Part shown: one piece after another, positions 8,899-15,475 of the stretch
Layout of the letters: every line of letters begins with the position of its first letter
Numbering within the stretch: the first letter of the stretch is position 1
IMG/VR virus record: IMGVR_UViG_3300043410_000355
Span: 1-45,352 of that record
Origin: a virus
Strand: one strand, 5' to 3'
DNA: 45,352 nucleotides
Notes under the pieces: generated by a model
Databases searched by the model: none
What the model saw: only the letters and a program-made list of their open reading frames with translations
What the model was told of the DNA's origin: nothing
Made by a program: the position numbers and the translations under genes

Positions 8899-9234
8899 TT
8901 AAATCTGGGTAATCTGTGGATTTACTGTTACGATTCCCTCGACCACTCTGGTCTTTGTTCCAGAAGGGGAGGTAATTTCAACATCATACAGCCATCTTCC
9001 TGCTGGAACCGCTGCAGACTGTTCTGGGGATAATTGTAGGCGCACCTTACCTGCTCCTGCATCGTAGATAGAGGCAGTGAAAGTGAAGGATTGGCTAGAC
9101 TGATAGGACTTTCTCATCTGAGAAGCCACAGAATAACCAGTTAGGTTTAGTGCCTGACCGTTGGTTGCAGCAACCGAAATGATGTTGCTATATGATGCAC
9201 CAGCGTCGACGAAAAGGTTGCTGACTGTCGCCAT
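8899..9234 (-). CDS. Small structural protein, beta-sandwich-like
   Basis: 111 aa. The pattern (FVDAGASYSNIISVAATNGQ, LNLTGYSVASQMRKSY, then GKVRLQLSPEQSAAVPAGRW and LYDVEITSPSGTKTRVVEG) is typical of small tail or baseplate-upper-protein N-terminal domains in marine phages: a beta-sandwich ending with a 'W.YDVE...G....V..G...V' signature. It is the first gene of the minus-strand fibre operon, directly behind a perfect TATAAATA late promoter. Precise role unknown; a fibre-attachment or adaptor protein is most likely. Confidence 0.65.
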   Translation of the reverse strand: MATVSNLFVDAGASYSNIISVAATNGQALNLTGYSVASQMRKSYQSSQSFTFTASIYDAGAGKVRLQLSPEQSAAVPAGRWLYDVEITSPSGTKTRVVEGIVTVNPQITQI

Positions 9235-9264: not shown

Positions 9265-9272
9265 TATTTATA
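9265..9272 (-). promoter_or_regulatory. T4-type late promoter
   Basis: Perfect TATAAATA on the minus strand, 30 bases upstream of the ATG at 9234. This is the consensus box recognised by RNA polymerase carrying the phage sigma gp55, with gp33 and the sliding clamp as activators. A gp33 homologue lies at 44594-44809. It drives the fibre/neck operon leftward. Confidence 0.85.
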
Positions 9273-9299: not shown

Positions 9300-9307
9300 T
9301 ATAAATA
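9300..9307 (+). promoter_or_regulatory. T4-type late promoter, divergent
   Basis: Perfect TATAAATA on the plus strand, with the ATG of the 226-aa gene at 9346 downstream. It is 27 bases from the opposite-facing box, forming a compact divergent late promoter pair. It shows that the plus-strand gene is meant to be made late, with the structural proteins. Confidence 0.85.
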
Positions 9308-9345: not shown

Positions 9346-10026
9346 ATGGAAAACATCCAACCACCACAGAATGGCACAGTAACTGTGGCAGAACAAGCAG
9401 AAAACCTACCTTCGCCACTAATTGGAGACGCGAAGCCAGAAGAATATAACTTTGACTACTCTCCAGTCGAAGAAACGTTTAATCGTCACCTATTCCCAAC
9501 ACTATTTGCGAGCTATAAGTTCACTGACTGGGAAAAGATCGCGCAACCATTGATCGACCTATCTAACGGTTGGGATGGTCCAAATGCGGGTGGCGATATT
9601 ATGGAACTAGACCATCCAGCAGTTAACCGTCTAAAAGAAATCATCTACGAAATCTGTGAAAACGTCCAGCTTTCTAAGGATGATAACGGTCGTACTCCAG
9701 TTATTGTTGGCTCCAACGTTATTTTCCAACAGAAGGGTGAACACATCCCTCTACATAACTACGAGTTTTCTACTCTAGTTTTCACTTTCGTTGCTAACGT
9801 TGGTCAAACTCCACCGATGACTTACTTCGCAGACCCACGCGGTGGTGTCCAAGCGATCCGTAAGATGGCTGCACAGAACCTAGTTGGTACTAGCTTCGGT
9901 ATCAGCAGCCGTGTTGGTGAAATCTATGTTTCTCCAGGCTACGCTCAACGTTATGTTGAGACTAACCTAGAATCAGAAACCCATGTGCTCGTTAACGTTC
10001 GTGTAAACTTTTTGATGATCACTTAA
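9346..10026 (+). CDS. 2OG-Fe(II)-oxygenase-like protein with degenerate metal site
   Basis: 226 aa. The region 120-226 follows the double-stranded beta-helix pattern of phage 2OG-Fe(II) oxygenases (2OG-FeII_Oxy_5 type): a strand ending KGEHIPLHNYEFSTLVFTF, then MTYFADPRGG with the usual 'DPR', then VGEIYVSPGYAQRYVETN and a final strand LVNVRVNF. In active members the first motif is HxH or HxD and the second contains another His (FPsyl-H-V). Here the first His is kept (LHNY), but the second ligand appears to be Tyr, and the distal His is Gln/Arg (GYAQRY). It may thus be catalytically dead, or use different ligands. It is the only plus-strand gene between two minus-strand blocks, has its own late promoter, and its 3' end overlaps the PP-loop gene tail to tail. 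Confidence 0.6.
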   Translation: MENIQPPQNGTVTVAEQAENLPSPLIGDAKPEEYNFDYSPVEETFNRHLFPTLFASYKFTDWEKIAQPLIDLSNGWDGPNAGGDIMELDHPAVNRLKEIIYEICENVQLSKDDNGRTPVIVGSNVIFQQKGEHIPLHNYEFSTLVFTFVANVGQTPPMTYFADPRGGVQAIRKMAAQNLVGTSFGISSRVGEIYVSPGYAQRYVETNLESETHVLVNVRVNFLMIT

Positions 10027-11076
10027 AATATGCTTGTTAACGTAGTGGACTGAATAGTCCTCTAGTAAAAATAACCAAGACGCAAGGGGGTTTCCTAAAG
10101 AGGAGACCCCCTTTGGTTTATTCCAAGCGTAATAACTATCTCCACTATACTCTTCGATCAACTCTCTCATAACCCAACGGTGAGTTAGAGGTTTACCGAC
10201 ATCTTTCGTGAATGGCTCTTTAGTTGTGATAACATAGCGCTGAAAGTCGTCAGTGTTATAGAAGTGATATTGGTTATCTTGCTGGTTCGTCGCGATTCGA
10301 CTAGAATACTCTGCTGTATACCAATCATAGTTGAAGATCAACCACCAACGGAGATCTCGGAGAGTCTCAATCTTTTTAGGGCTAGCTTTAATAGATGGAA
10401 GCAAGAACTCGTGTAGTTCATCATCGATACACTTAGTGTAGTCGATCAACGGATCATCGTTATTGAATTGGTGATGGAAGAAGGATACAGAGGTTTTAAT
10501 CTTACCAGTGATAAAGTCGTCCACTGGACCAAATAGTTGGTTACCGTAGTATCCAGTGACGAAGATGCTGTTTGGATCTCCATCGTCGAAGTCTCTTGTA
10601 GAAGAAACTTTGAAATTATACTTAACGCCAGAATTCTTAATCTTGGTGTCGAATAGATTACCAGATTCTAGAATAGAACTGTATGTTCCATATACAGTAA
10701 TCTGACTCGGGTCATTGACGTGTTTTAGTAGTGCAAAGAGTGCGAGTGTGCTATCGATACCACCACTCCAAACTACGCTGATCGGTTTATCTAAAGCAAC
10801 CAATTCTTTACAACGATCATCAACACACTCCCTGAAAGACTTATTAAACCCAGCATCAATCTTTGGGATCTGCAATAGTCCAGGTTTGATATTCAGGAAG
10901 TGGGGAGTTTGTCCTGTTCTGTCATAGACAGCGTTCAGGTTCATCTTATGTTTCTCAAAGAAGTTATACAACTCCTTATGGTTTGGAGCCAAATATTCTT
11001 CGATTGGTTCTATCTTGTTATTGATTAGGTCTAAAGAACGGATCAAACCAATGTTGTAGTATAGCAGTTGCTTCAT
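9973..11076 (-). CDS. PP-loop ATPase, asparagine-synthase-like (possible amide ligase)
   Basis: 367 aa. Residues 101-117 carry the PP-loop VVWSGGIDSTLALFALL, which binds ATP pyrophosphate in adenine-nucleotide alpha-hydrolases (asparagine synthetase, GMP synthetase, QueC, TilS). A second segment at 172-183 (FVTGYYGNQLFG) matches the 'TGEGADELFGG' region of asparagine synthetase B, with the acidic residues replaced. There is no N-terminal Cys glutaminase; the first about 100 residues are a short unrelated domain. The family activates a carboxylate with ATP for amide formation; lasso-peptide cyclases and beta-lactam synthetases are relatives. The substrate here is unknown. The gene follows a terminator hairpin, has GAGGA before its ATG, and its last 54 bases overlap the 3' end of the plus-strand gene. 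Confidence 0.7.
   Translation of the reverse strand: MKQLLYYNIGLIRSLDLINNKIEPIEEYLAPNHKELYNFFEKHKMNLNAVYDRTGQTPHFLNIKPGLLQIPKIDAGFNKSFRECVDDRCKELVALDKPISVVWSGGIDSTLALFALLKHVNDPSQITVYGTYSSILESGNLFDTKIKNSGVKYNFKVSSTRDFDDGDPNSIFVTGYYGNQLFGPVDDFITGKIKTSVSFFHHQFNNDDPLIDYTKCIDDELHEFLLPSIKASPKKIETLRDLRWWLIFNYDWYTAEYSSRIATNQQDNQYHFYNTDDFQRYVITTKEPFTKDVGKPLTHRWVMRELIEEYSGDSYYAWNKPKGVSSLGNPLASWLFLLEDYSVHYVNKHILSDHQKVYTNVNEHMGF
10084..10113 (+). terminator. Strong hairpin downstream of the 226-aa gene, inside the PP-loop ORF
   Basis: Arms 10084-10096 and 10101-10113 pair over 13 positions (GGGGGTTTCCT against AGGAGACCCCC plus two A-T pairs, one G-T) around loop AAAG. The plus strand then reads TTTGGTTTATT. 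It is a likely terminator for the late plus-strand transcript that starts at 9300. It lies within the coding part of the minus-strand PP-loop gene (around KPKGVSSLGNP), so one sequence serves both. Confidence 0.6.
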
Positions 11077-11092
11077 AATATCCTCAAAATGA

Positions 11093-11116
11093 AAAAGGGA
11101 GCCGTAGCTCCCTTTT
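11093..11116 (-). terminator. Rho-independent terminator after the TRAP-like gene
   Basis: Ten-bp stem AAAAGGGAGC/GCTCCCTTTT with loop CGTA (11103-11106 on the plus strand). On the minus strand the hairpin runs into TTTTT, giving a textbook intrinsic terminator 18 bases after the stop at 11134. It separates the solute-binding gene from the PP-loop gene. Confidence 0.75.
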
Positions 11117-11133: not shown

Positions 11134-12081
11134 TTAGTGTAGTTGAATCTTCTGGACTAGACCAGGAGTGAAGTAGTCTGCAAACTTTTCGTAAACAGAA
11201 GCAGTAACTTCTTTGAACTTCTTCTGTTCTGTGTCGCTCATACGAACAACTTCAACACCCTTCTCTGCACATTCTGCTAGAATGTTTGGAATGTCAGCAA
11301 CAGATTCGCGACGCTCTGCGCGAGCAGCATTGAACGCTGCAGTAGCCATGATCTCACGAGTTTCTTCGTCGAACTGAGCCATGAAGTCTTTATTGACGAT
11401 GATAGAAGTCAAGAACAAGCTGTGAGCAGTATCGTTAACAACCTTGAAAGACTTGTACTGGTCAAGAGGGAAGATACGAACGTAAGTAGATTCGCCAGCA
11501 GAGATAACACCCTTGTCTGCGTACTCGTTCATTTCTTCTAGAGCGATGTGCTCTTTTGGCTCTGCGCCTAGTAGTTTGAATGTTTCAACAGCGACTGGAG
11601 AGCGAGATGTACGAACAGTCTGCCCCTTCCAAGAATCGACAGTGTCAGCACGGAAGTTCGCTGGAACAACACGGTAACCACCAGAGTAAGTGAAAGACAT
11701 AGCAGTGATATTGCTATTCTTAGAAACACCTGCTAGTAGTTCAGTACCAACTTCACCTTCCAAAACTGCGTCAGCGTGAGCGTGGTCGCGGAATAGGAAA
11801 GGTAGGTCTAGAGCGTGTAGATCTTTATTGTAGTCTGCAAGCCAAGTAGTGTAGATGTGGCTCATTTCGATCGCGCCAGTGTCGATCAATTGCATCAAGT
11901 CATTCTTGCTGACTTTCTTGCCAGCGTTATACTTGTTAGTGTAATCAGTCAAAGAAAGAACTTCGATGTCAAACTTGCCACCAGTTTTTTCGTTAACTTC
12001 TTTAGCGAAACGCTCGGCGACTTTTAGAAATAGACCGATTGGTTCGTGGGCGATGACCCATTTTACGTGTTTCTTTTCCAT
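11134..12081 (-). CDS. TRAP-transporter-type solute-binding protein (DctP family) without signal peptide
   Basis: 315 aa. Resembles DctP/TRAP periplasmic binding proteins along its length: KVAERFAKEVNEKTGGKFDI near the N-terminus, then SYSGGYRV-like 'TYSGGYRVVPANFRADTV', WKGQTVRTSRSPVAVETFKL with LGAEP (this segment holds the Arg that grips a carboxylate ligand in the family), and GVISAGESTYVRIFPL. Cellular members carry a signal peptide or lipobox and feed DctQ/DctM permeases. Here the protein starts MEKKHVKWVIAHEPIGLFLK with no hydrophobic leader, and no permease genes are nearby. It should stay in the cytoplasm or be packed with the virion. GGAG precedes the ATG; the 108-aa gene ends 12 bases upstream. 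It may be a free ligand-binding or scaffold protein. Confidence 0.8.
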   Translation of the reverse strand: MEKKHVKWVIAHEPIGLFLKVAERFAKEVNEKTGGKFDIEVLSLTDYTNKYNAGKKVSKNDLMQLIDTGAIEMSHIYTTWLADYNKDLHALDLPFLFRDHAHADAVLEGEVGTELLAGVSKNSNITAMSFTYSGGYRVVPANFRADTVDSWKGQTVRTSRSPVAVETFKLLGAEPKEHIALEEMNEYADKGVISAGESTYVRIFPLDQYKSFKVVNDTAHSLFLTSIIVNKDFMAQFDEETREIMATAAFNAARAERRESVADIPNILAECAEKGVEVVRMSDTEQKKFKEVTASVYEKFADYFTPGLVQKIQLH

Positions 12082-12093
12082 TTAGGATTCTCC

Positions 12094-12420
12094 TTATTTT
12101 CTTAAATACTTAAGATGTTCTGCACACTTAAGATCTAAACTCCACACCTCACCAGACTCTGTTACGTCTACTACAATAATCGGAAGTTTTAACCTTATGA
12201 TCCGTTCTTTATATTTATAAACAAACTCTTTTTGCTCCTGTGTTGCATTGAGCAAAAAATCTGGTATTTGGATGCTGACATTATTACTTTGGAACCCATT
12301 TTCCAGTGAGTTGTGCCAGAAAACATCAGCTAATGTTCTCTTATTTAGCTTCGAGTCGATTGAACCGTATCTAGGATAACGGTTCACATCCCAAATGTAA
12401 CAGTTTAGGAAAGGTTCCAT
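12094..12420 (-). CDS. Unknown 108-aa protein translationally coupled to the radical SAM gene
   Basis: 108 aa, starting MEPFLNCYIWDVNRYPRYGS. No family recognised. Its ATG overlaps the radical SAM stop as TAATG, so the two are almost certainly translated together and it is a candidate partner of the enzyme. The stretch WDVNRYPRYGSID...TLADVFWHNSLEN loosely recalls the non-cysteine parts of a SPASM domain (a residue pattern G-I-...-L-x-D-V-F/W-x-x-S), but it has only two cysteines, so it could not hold an iron-sulfur cluster by itself. The C-terminal half (LPIIVVDVTESGEVWSLDLK) looks like a beta-alpha-beta fold. A peptide-recognition role is possible but unsupported. Confidence 0.6.
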   Translation of the reverse strand: MEPFLNCYIWDVNRYPRYGSIDSKLNKRTLADVFWHNSLENGFQSNNVSIQIPDFLLNATQEQKEFVYKYKERIIRLKLPIIVVDVTESGEVWSLDLKCAEHLKYLRK

Positions 12421-13883
12421 TATCGAGGCTCTACTGGAACCTGTACGATAGGAATGTTAATTGGCTTGCGCACTTTCCAAGACTTAACGCCAGTCTTCAT
12501 ATACTCGATATCGATAACTGGGATGGAGGTAACACCGTCGAAACGGATACGTTCACCTTTGATCTCAGTCAATACTAGACCGTCTGTCATCTTAAACAGA
12601 GAAGCGCTAAGCATAGCTAGGTTATACCAGAAAAGGTTCTCACACGCCTGTTCCCAATACTGATCCTCTAGGAACAAACACGCACCCTGACACAACTGAA
12701 CGACTGGACAAGAAGGGCATTCCTTACGAGTAGACCAGTGGTAAGAGTTAGTTAAACGGATGTTGTCGAAATCCTCGATATTACCGATGTTATGTTTAGT
12801 TAGGGAAGACGTGTTCTGACAAGTGGTAACGTTACCCTTCATATCGATGGCAATGTTGTCTTCTCGATCCATACCACACTTCTGACCGACTGCTTCAGCA
12901 GGGCGTCCATAGACGATAGATTCAAAGAAAGACTTAACTTTCTGGTGAACCGTCCAGCTAAACTGATTCTTATTATCGATTGTTTCTTCGAACAATGAAT
13001 GAAGAATTTCCTTCTTCTCATCAGTTGTTTGAAGAGAGTGATTCATACCAGAGTCGTCATATGGAAGCATTAACTCTTCTGTAGTGACTTGAAGTTCGCG
13101 CTGGTCAACACCTGGATTCTCGAATCCCTGATGTGCCTTGTTTAGCTTCTTCTGGATGAAATCTCTAACTGCAGGGATTGAAACGTTCTCACGAGTCAAA
13201 ACGCAGTTGAATGTGAAGCGCATACTACCCATAGTCTTAAGGGCGTATACGATAGCATCTTTTGCAGTTGGTTCATCTAATGGGTCTGGACCACGATTTT
13301 GCGCATGGAGTGGACCATCGTGAGACATACCGATAGAAAAACCCATACGGTTGAACCAATCAACCTTATCCCTAGTCAATAGAGATCCGTTGGTAACCAT
13401 CATAAACTGAGCGTTAGGGTAAACCTTCTTAACCTTCTCAGCTAGTGGCTTTAGAGTTTTCCAGTAAACGAGTGGCTCTCCACCCCAGAACTCTAAACGG
13501 AATCGGTCATATGAATCGAACGCGAAGTTCTCTTTCATCTTGCGTACCAATTCCTCAGCGTCATCTGGACCGCCGACTGGATCGTGTGGTTGGTGGGCTT
13601 GATTGCAGTAAGAACACGCGTAGTTACACTTAAGACCCATCGTGATCTTAAGTGTAACAGGTTTCTTTGATTTCTTGCCGTGTAAGGCTGGGTCGTGTGG
13701 GTTGGTAATGTTTGCAGGTTCCCACACCTTAGCGTTCATTTGATATTGGAGACCCTTACTGATAAGATCAAGCGAGGGTCTCTCGTGGTTATGTTCCCAA
13801 TACATCTCAGATGTCATTGGGTCATAAACCATATTCAACGTCACATCATTAGCCCCTTGCAGGACTAGTGTAAATTTACTCAT
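12420..13883 (-). CDS. Radical SAM/SPASM protein (anSME-like maturase)
   Basis: 487 aa from the ATG at 13883, which has AAGGAT upstream; a TTG two codons earlier is less likely. The radical SAM motif is C86-NYA-C90-SY-C93 (CX3CX2C), which binds the [4Fe-4S] cluster that cleaves S-adenosylmethionine. WGGEP (133-137) and TNGS (164-167) are further core motifs. The C-terminal part is a complete SPASM domain: C336-X13-G-X4-C355, then C389-X2-C392-X5-C398-X3-C402 and C414, enough for two auxiliary clusters. This layout is that of peptide/protein maturases (sulfatase maturase anSME, sactipeptide and ranthipeptide enzymes, PqqE). Such enzymes modify Cys, Ser or neighbouring residues of a polypeptide. 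The likeliest substrate here is the Cys-rich protein two genes upstream (inference). Confidence 0.9.
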   Translation of the reverse strand: MSKFTLVLQGANDVTLNMVYDPMTSEMYWEHNHERPSLDLISKGLQYQMNAKVWEPANITNPHDPALHGKKSKKPVTLKITMGLKCNYACSYCNQAHQPHDPVGGPDDAEELVRKMKENFAFDSYDRFRLEFWGGEPLVYWKTLKPLAEKVKKVYPNAQFMMVTNGSLLTRDKVDWFNRMGFSIGMSHDGPLHAQNRGPDPLDEPTAKDAIVYALKTMGSMRFTFNCVLTRENVSIPAVRDFIQKKLNKAHQGFENPGVDQRELQVTTEELMLPYDDSGMNHSLQTTDEKKEILHSLFEETIDNKNQFSWTVHQKVKSFFESIVYGRPAEAVGQKCGMDREDNIAIDMKGNVTTCQNTSSLTKHNIGNIEDFDNIRLTNSYHWSTRKECPSCPVVQLCQGACLFLEDQYWEQACENLFWYNLAMLSASLFKMTDGLVLTEIKGERIRFDGVTSIPVIDIEYMKTGVKSWKVRKPINIPIVQVPVEPR

Positions 13884-13914
13884 TAACAATCCTTATAATA
13901 TAGAACAGATAATG

Positions 13915-15088: not shown

Positions 15089-15475
15089 TTAGCAGTTACA
15101 GTTACATGCGCAGTTACAGTTACATGCGCAGTTACAGTTACAGTTAGTTCTATACCATTGGAAACCACCCATTGTGTTATCTTGGTTATCGTGACGGATA
15201 CCGTCTGTAGAACCAGAAACTGCAGCACCGATAGAAGTGTTACGGAAGATGTTAATACGTCTATCAGTAGTTGCACCCCAACCTAAGTCGGCAGCATCAC
15301 AGTTACCGCAGGCACAGTTACAGTTACCGTTACATGCGTTACATGCGCAGTTCCATCCGCAGTTAGCGTTTGGTTCGGTATAGCCTCTGTTACCTGCATC
15401 GTAGTAGTTCCAGAATAAGTTTACAACGTCTGTACCGTCAGAACGTCTAAAACCTGTTGCACCGTAATATGCCAT
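15089..15475 (-). CDS. Cysteine-repeat protein, candidate substrate of the radical SAM enzyme
   Basis: 128 aa with 17 cysteines in two clusters. Residues 1-37 (MAYYGATGFRRSDGTDVVNL then FWNYYDAGNRGYTEPNA) form a cysteine-free head. Cluster 1 (39-59) reads NCGWNCACNACNGNCNCACG with a final NC. Residues 60-110 are again cysteine-free, and cluster 2 (111-128) is the C-terminus NCNCNCACNCNCACNCNC. Every cysteine is preceded by Asn or Ala. There is no signal peptide. It lies between an S74 fibre gene (2 bases upstream) and the 382-aa gene, with GGAGA before its ATG, so it is expressed with virion proteins. Possible roles: substrate for thioether or other radical SAM chemistry, a metal-binding tip, or a disulfide-locked beta stack. 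Confidence 0.8.
   Translation of the reverse strand: MAYYGATGFRRSDGTDVVNLFWNYYDAGNRGYTEPNANCGWNCACNACNGNCNCACGNCDAADLGWGATTDRRINIFRNTSIGAAVSGSTDGIRHDNQDNTMGGFQWYRTNCNCNCACNCNCACNCNC
15092..15145 (-). repeat. 18-bp tandem repeat encoding the Asn/Ala-Cys tail
   Basis: On the minus strand, after one leading AACTGT, the unit AACTGTAACTGCGCATGT is repeated 2.67 times without a mismatch up to the stop codon. It encodes the NC/AC tail of the Cys-rich protein. Perfect identity at the DNA level suggests recent expansion by slippage. Confidence 0.9.

Follow-up and report, generated by a model that had tools for sequence, protein, structure and literature searches.

The closest described relatives of the protein studied here are the DctP-type binding proteins of TRAP transporters (PF03480), such as SiaP and the galacturonate- and glucuronate-binding proteins, with which it shares the full-length fold, the carboxylate-binding arginine and a high structural similarity. 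In SiaP this residue is Arg-147, which is common to 96.8% of the family and selects for carboxylates (PMC4646407). The phage protein differs from these relatives in that it is leaderless, is mostly found without a permease partner and is encoded by a phage-borne late gene; moreover, its pocket carries the signature EST..R plus NDTxHS instead of the usual (Q/A)EN of TRAP binding proteins. The PstS proteins of cyanophages retain their leader and serve a host transporter, whereas the phage DctP described here has no leader. PstS is a case of a solute-binding protein gene carried by a phage and used as a nutrient gene (PMC6359870). Homologous viral sequences are already present in databases, namely phrog_31178 and the short entries A0A6J7WI33 and A0A6J7WKL0 (159-162 aa, named 'TRAP transporter solute receptor DctP/TeaA'). 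In the open-licence full-text literature we found no study of leader loss, regulation or genomic context for viral DctP or leaderless TRAP proteins.

The window protein and its missing leader

The window is the whole 45,352-nt stretch of viral DNA that was analysed. The DctP gene is read on the minus strand from an ATG at 12081 to a stop at 11134, exactly as in the preliminary description, and is preceded by the following signals:

11134-12081, minus strand: leaderless DctP-type solute-binding protein, 315 aa (PF03480 profile, AF2 model and structure match)
12082-12084, minus strand: in-frame stop codon TAA right before the ATG (upstream in-frame reading of the sequence)
12090-12094, minus strand: Shine-Dalgarno box AGGAG of the DctP gene (from the sequence)

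The similarity to DctP had been described as extending along the whole protein, and a profile search agreed, with PF03480 covering residues 20-301 (E=2.5e-43; 148.9 bits, cut-off 23.4). An AF2 model built from 33 family members had the two-lobed DctP fold at a mean pLDDT of 95.7; an initial single-sequence model, with a pLDDT of 37.9, was set aside. The model matched structure 4xeq with a Z score of 35.7 and an rmsd of 1.9 over 297 residues, and the best 50 structure entries listed were all TRAP or TRAP-type binding proteins (Z 32.7-35.7). A fold other than DctP is ruled out by the confidence of this model and its Z score of 35.7 to TRAP binding proteins.

The first strand of the model starts at residue 4, that is, the N-terminus lies where a mature exported DctP would begin. 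No leader is possible, since the stop codon immediately precedes the ATG. A missed upstream start, which according to the preliminary description could have hidden a leader, is ruled out by the in-frame TAA together with the AGGAG box. The window protein is leaderless and, as judged from its sequence, is not exported by Sec. Furthermore, no DctQ or DctM gene was found in the window neighbourhood or in 13 phage records of 106-250 kb. The protein is a DctP by profile, fold and arginine but, lacking a leader and mostly also a permease encoded in the same genome, it is not the usual TRAP transport receptor.

The carboxylate-binding arginine region pointed out earlier is indeed present: R157, in WKGQTVRTSRSP, aligns with the canonical TRAP residue equivalent to SiaP Arg-147. 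Among the 69 distinct viral-type proteins examined, a count that includes related sequences, R157 is found in 68, and H12, E13, Y132, G134, G135, R202, T218 and H220 are invariant (69 of 69). Carboxylate binding by the leaderless protein is predicted from the conservation of the pocket, and the alignment suggests that the pocket positions other than R157 may also contact the ligand.

The leaderless family and its leadered kin

The DctP family is carried by many uncultured T4-like water phages. An alignment-based scan yielded 146 confirmed viral stretches, of which 80 were kept, and a scan of viral contigs with the window protein alone gave 48 loci. Identity to the window protein ranges from 91% down to about 47%. 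In all complete members the start lies a few residues ahead of the motif [KR]WVIAHEP, or of what corresponds to it, and only shortly ahead of the first strand, so the proposed check of whether homologues in other phages also lack leaders gave a uniform answer. The search motifs lie within the mature part, and leadered members would therefore have been found too. By computation, the family is shown to be under purifying selection, with few amino-acid-changing differences (pN/pS 0.11-0.19). A second, divergent leaderless DctP was seen in the same phage in two cases (L115:13989-14930 and L091:7980-8999; 35% and 29% identical to the window protein), and the L115 copy adjoins a leadered TctC protein of its own.

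No cultured phage with this family was present in the collection searched. Twelve GenBank matches considered as possible cultured relatives are 20-26% identical, look like bacterial DctP and come from short unannotated records plus one large Salmonella record. The nearest baseplate relatives of the window phage belong to Pelagibacter and Methylophilales phages (about 41%).

Cellular members were rare in the genomes scanned. In a single scan, 84,980 species genomes of bacteria and archaea gave only four close matches, all leaderless and 43-49% identical. Among 398 sampled Pseudomonadota genomes the family occurs only in the source genome of L127 (479 bits; next best 135), and the ordinary DctPs of these genomes have leader-like N-termini wherever the start could be judged. 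A recent import from a host is unlikely, because the family is deep and has a single carrier among the 398 genomes.

Leadered kin do exist in the Bacteriovoracia. In a quick tree, in which the divergent viral copies of L091 and L115 sit on long branches, DctPs with clear leaders from two Bacteriovoracia chromosomes form a joint clade with the viral proteins (support 96); they share 46-47% identity with the window protein and as much as 50% with other members of the viral clade. A search of 129 Bacteriovoracia genomes added further leadered relatives. These orphan proteins (L130/L170, L132/L171, L188, L189 and L190) belong to the same clade at 46-50% identity and keep a Sec-type leader, in contrast to the viral family, and no DctQ or DctM was present among the neighbouring genes listed for them. 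Their pocket nevertheless carries the viral signature: EST..R occurs in 86 of 87 viral proteins and NDTxHS in 75 of 87, and both are found in the leadered relatives except in one of the five, which has the second half only. None of the other cellular DctPs compared has the signature. Since the nearest leadered kin share this pocket, the simplest reading of the sequences would be a loss of the leader with retention of the binding site. At L171:1572-2945, about 4 kb from a leadered DctP of this clade, lies a Bacteriovoracia radical SAM/SPASM gene whose product is 34% identical over its full length to the radical SAM protein of the window.

Expression signals and the surrounding gene block

In window-type loci the gene order is S74 fibre, adhesin-like genes, radical SAM, p108, DctP, PP-loop and fibre genes. 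The features around DctP are:

9346-10026, plus strand, opposite to DctP: 2OG-Fe(II) oxygenase-like protein (phrog_81, E=1.6e-9)
9973-11076, minus strand: PP-loop ATP-pyrophosphatase-like protein, with an SGGIDS motif and weak likeness to asparagine synthase/QueC
11093-11116, minus strand: intrinsic terminator-like hairpin right after DctP (hairpin search)
12094-12420, minus strand: p108, a 108-aa protein with no family assigned, no further than 4.5 kb from DctP at 37 of the 69 distinct loci
12212-12219, minus strand: T4-type late promoter motif TATAAATA, within p108 and upstream of DctP (motif search)
12420-13889, minus strand: radical SAM/SPASM protein, with CxxxCxxC at C88, C92 and C95, closest to peptide-maturase profiles
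15089-15475, minus strand: Cys/Asn-rich protein with NCNCAC runs, two genes upstream of radical SAM

The DctP gene had been placed in one transcript with the radical SAM gene. Read-through is possible, since only 12 nt separate p108 from DctP, but a late promoter motif of its own also precedes DctP at 12212-12219. Four copies of TATAAATA in the whole window are not unusual on their own. Across the family, with related sequences included in all promoter and terminator counts, the motif precedes DctP at 33 of 66 distinct loci, where 2.5 were expected and none of 200 shuffles gave more than 7, compared with 3 of 38 for radical SAM, 0 of 36 for p108, 2 of 61 for PP-loop, 0 of 14 for C382, 0 of 13 for the Cys-rich gene and 0 of 23 for p284, a range of 0-3 per gene in which the adhesin-like genes are included. 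In five loci with quite different surroundings (L041, L084, L088, L091 and L113) it lies 55-72 nt upstream of the DctP start region. Two divergent copies are also found between a 111-aa gene and the 2OG-like gene (9265-9272, minus strand, and 9300-9307, plus strand), with counterparts in 19 of 31 and 7 of 15 relatives, respectively.

The terminator noted after DctP was recovered as well. A terminator-like hairpin follows the gene in 51 of 68 loci against 0.2 expected; such hairpins are rare after radical SAM, p108, PP-loop and S74, and frequent after p284 (12 of 22). In addition, codon adaptation was scored against each phage's own major capsid (gp23) and sheath genes. DctP ranked first of 12-23 locus ORFs in seven of eight phages and third in the remaining one, with values of 0.60-0.75, gp23 itself scoring 0.72-0.82 against sheath. 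This suggests that DctP forms a separate late unit whose product would be made late and in bulk, high abundance being predicted from the codon usage and the regulatory signals. A stoichiometric role is favoured, and the pure cytoplasmic ligand sensor considered earlier becomes less likely, because of this separate late unit and the near-capsid codon adaptation.

The assignment of the PP-loop protein comes from its motif and weak profile matches (E=0.006 and 7.5e-4); SGGxDS is kept in 77 of 78 homologues. At 54 of 69 distinct loci a PP-loop gene is found no more than 4.5 kb from DctP, a figure that stands without a matched background for such phages, and at some DctP loci both PP-loop and oxygenase genes are missing from the vicinity. 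The Cys/Asn-rich gene occurs in 14 of the 69 distinct loci, and its product is a possible substrate or partner of the radical SAM protein in this sub-lineage only.

Inheritance of the block was assessed with the downstream gene at 8899-9234 as anchor, in order to avoid selecting loci by DctP. Among the 45 loci with enough upstream sequence, 21 had radical SAM, p108, DctP and PP-loop together, 21 had none of them and three had radical SAM without DctP (Fisher p=6.7e-10 for the co-occurrence of DctP and radical SAM, a value that ignores shared descent and counts related sequences). This distribution indicates an accessory block whose genes travel almost as one. The earlier suggestion that DctP feeds a carboxylate to a modification cassette gains support from such near all-or-none inheritance, the delivery itself being inferred. 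Asparagine-synthetase-type PP-loop enzymes activate carboxylates with ATP, by adenylation, and by analogy such an activity would fit a carboxylate-binding neighbour such as DctP. The late unit, the near-unit inheritance of the block at a syntenic tail-fibre site and the importers beside relatives are findings that go beyond the preliminary description.

Elsewhere the family occurs in other contexts. In L123 (5542-8761) the leaderless gene lies between the tail tube and gp20 portal genes, within the core structural operon. By eye, genes resembling acyl-CoA synthetase, short-chain reductase and DUF849/BKACE were seen near DctP in L068 (83-3064), L077 (7409-10343) and L086, and two P-loop proteins resembling sulfotransferases beside it in L078 (4644-5273 and 5917-6582), for which no profile matched.

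Importers were found beside several relatives. On the T4-like phage contig L041 (5058-8948), DctQ (E=2.1e-20), DctM (1.3e-54) and a leadered DctP (2e-30) come directly before the leaderless DctP, and a late promoter motif immediately precedes each of the two DctP genes; the best structure matches of the leadered protein are binding proteins for ketoacids and lactate (2hzk and 7ug8, about 3e-45; 2zzv, 4e-26). The statement that no DctQ/DctM lies nearby thus stands for the window neighbourhood and the 13 phage records, but not for L041, whose group alone has the permease and where a full TRAP operon adjoins the leaderless gene. TctC-type proteins are neighbours at ten distinct loci, most with clear Sec-type leaders, and because these keep classical leaders, phages do not generally discard them. 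In bacterial MAGs of Bacteriovoracaceae and a gammaproteobacterium (L129:5162-7948, L127:358-3272 and probably L126:3-2117, in which the MFS gene is partial at the contig end), a chromosomal leaderless DctP, 43-49% identical to the window protein, follows an oxalate/formate-type (OxlT) MFS gene and a gene named c45; no phage genes were among the neighbours listed for these three-gene clusters. The L129 MFS protein scores 344 bits with TIGR04259 (cut-off 335) and 274, below the cut-off, with the L-lactate transporter model. The c45 protein had no profile match in Pfam, PHROGs or NCBIfam, and is a candidate 2OG oxygenase by an HxD...H pattern alone. A suggestive common thread in these relatives is a carboxylate importer next to a cytosolic binder, which concerns a minority of loci and no window-type locus.

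Possible roles of a non-exported binder

The reading that we tentatively prefer is that the leaderless DctP acts as a non-exported, stoichiometric binder or buffer of small carboxylates. Its computed basis consists of the fold, the absence of a leader, the invariance of the pocket, purifying selection, the regulatory signals, codon bias and linkage to a PP-loop gene and, in the lineage of the window phage, to radical SAM and p108; from these we infer a cytosolic location, the class of ligand and delivery to the PP-loop enzyme. Late in infection the protein would close on a small organic acid within the host cytoplasm, and this acid would be supplied by host importers or by phage-encoded ones, such as the TRAP, TctC and OxlT-type systems of relatives. 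First guesses for the ligand would be 2-oxo, 2-hydroxy or oxalate-like acids. DctP may then buffer this acid or present it to the linked PP-loop enzyme, which might use it to modify phage or host products in bulk at a late stage. A more specific version is doubtful, namely that a periplasmic binder has moved to the cytoplasm with its ligand unchanged, serving at near-capsid level as an organic-acid reservoir for late modification by an enzyme system of the PP-loop protein, with radical SAM or 2OG proteins. One objection is that a carrier working catalytically would not require codon usage at capsid level, and this gives a role in the virion some probability.

It is rather unlikely that DctP is a virion component, its fold being packaged in the particle or displayed on it (in the interior of the head, at the tail or as a fibre accessory) and possibly still bearing ligand. 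The expression signature (late promoter, terminator and capsid-like codon usage) is the strongest argument for such a role, and the position of the gene among tail-fibre genes, or between tail tube and portal genes in L123, points the same way. However, purely structural reuse would not need an invariant pocket, the block is missing from about half of the related phages, DctP is more conserved than the S74 fibre gene, and bacterial chromosomes also have leaderless members, which share an operon with an OxlT-type MFS gene.

Phages are known to use sponge proteins against nucleotide signals, and on this model an abundant cytosolic DctP could sequester a carboxylate signal or effector and so disturb host regulation or defence. 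The lack of export, the high predicted expression, the high-affinity fold and the invariant pocket would all suit a sponge; we consider it improbable nonetheless, as a late promoter is late for counter-defence and the genes linked to DctP (PP-loop, radical SAM and importers) speak for supply and not for removal. Less probable still is an enzyme evolved from the binding protein, with H12-E13, E197, R202 and H220, all invariant, as a possible active site. Precedents for enzymes derived from solute-binding proteins are described (PMC7683729), but leadered, exported relatives that resemble ordinary binding proteins have this pocket signature too, and capsid-like codon usage is unusual for an enzyme. 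Finally, it is hardly credible that DctP is an ordinary auxiliary transport gene whose product reaches the periplasm by another route to serve a host TRAP permease: the complete TRAP operon directly upstream in L041 would favour this, yet that operon already has its own leadered DctP, and the family-wide lack of a leader, the absence of DctQ/DctM from the 13 large phage records and the classical leaders of the TctC neighbours all speak against it.

Solute-binding proteins are normally defined by their work outside the cytoplasmic membrane, and the leaderless viral DctP family breaks this rule. Infected cells are accordingly predicted to contain an organic-acid binder, either in the cytosol or borne by virions. 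The protein moreover links genes of the PP-loop, radical SAM and oxygenase kinds, all common yet unexplained in T4-like phages, and its ligand could reveal the function of this module. If the more specific reservoir version is true, a solute-binding protein would here serve as an intracellular metabolite store instead of a transport receptor.
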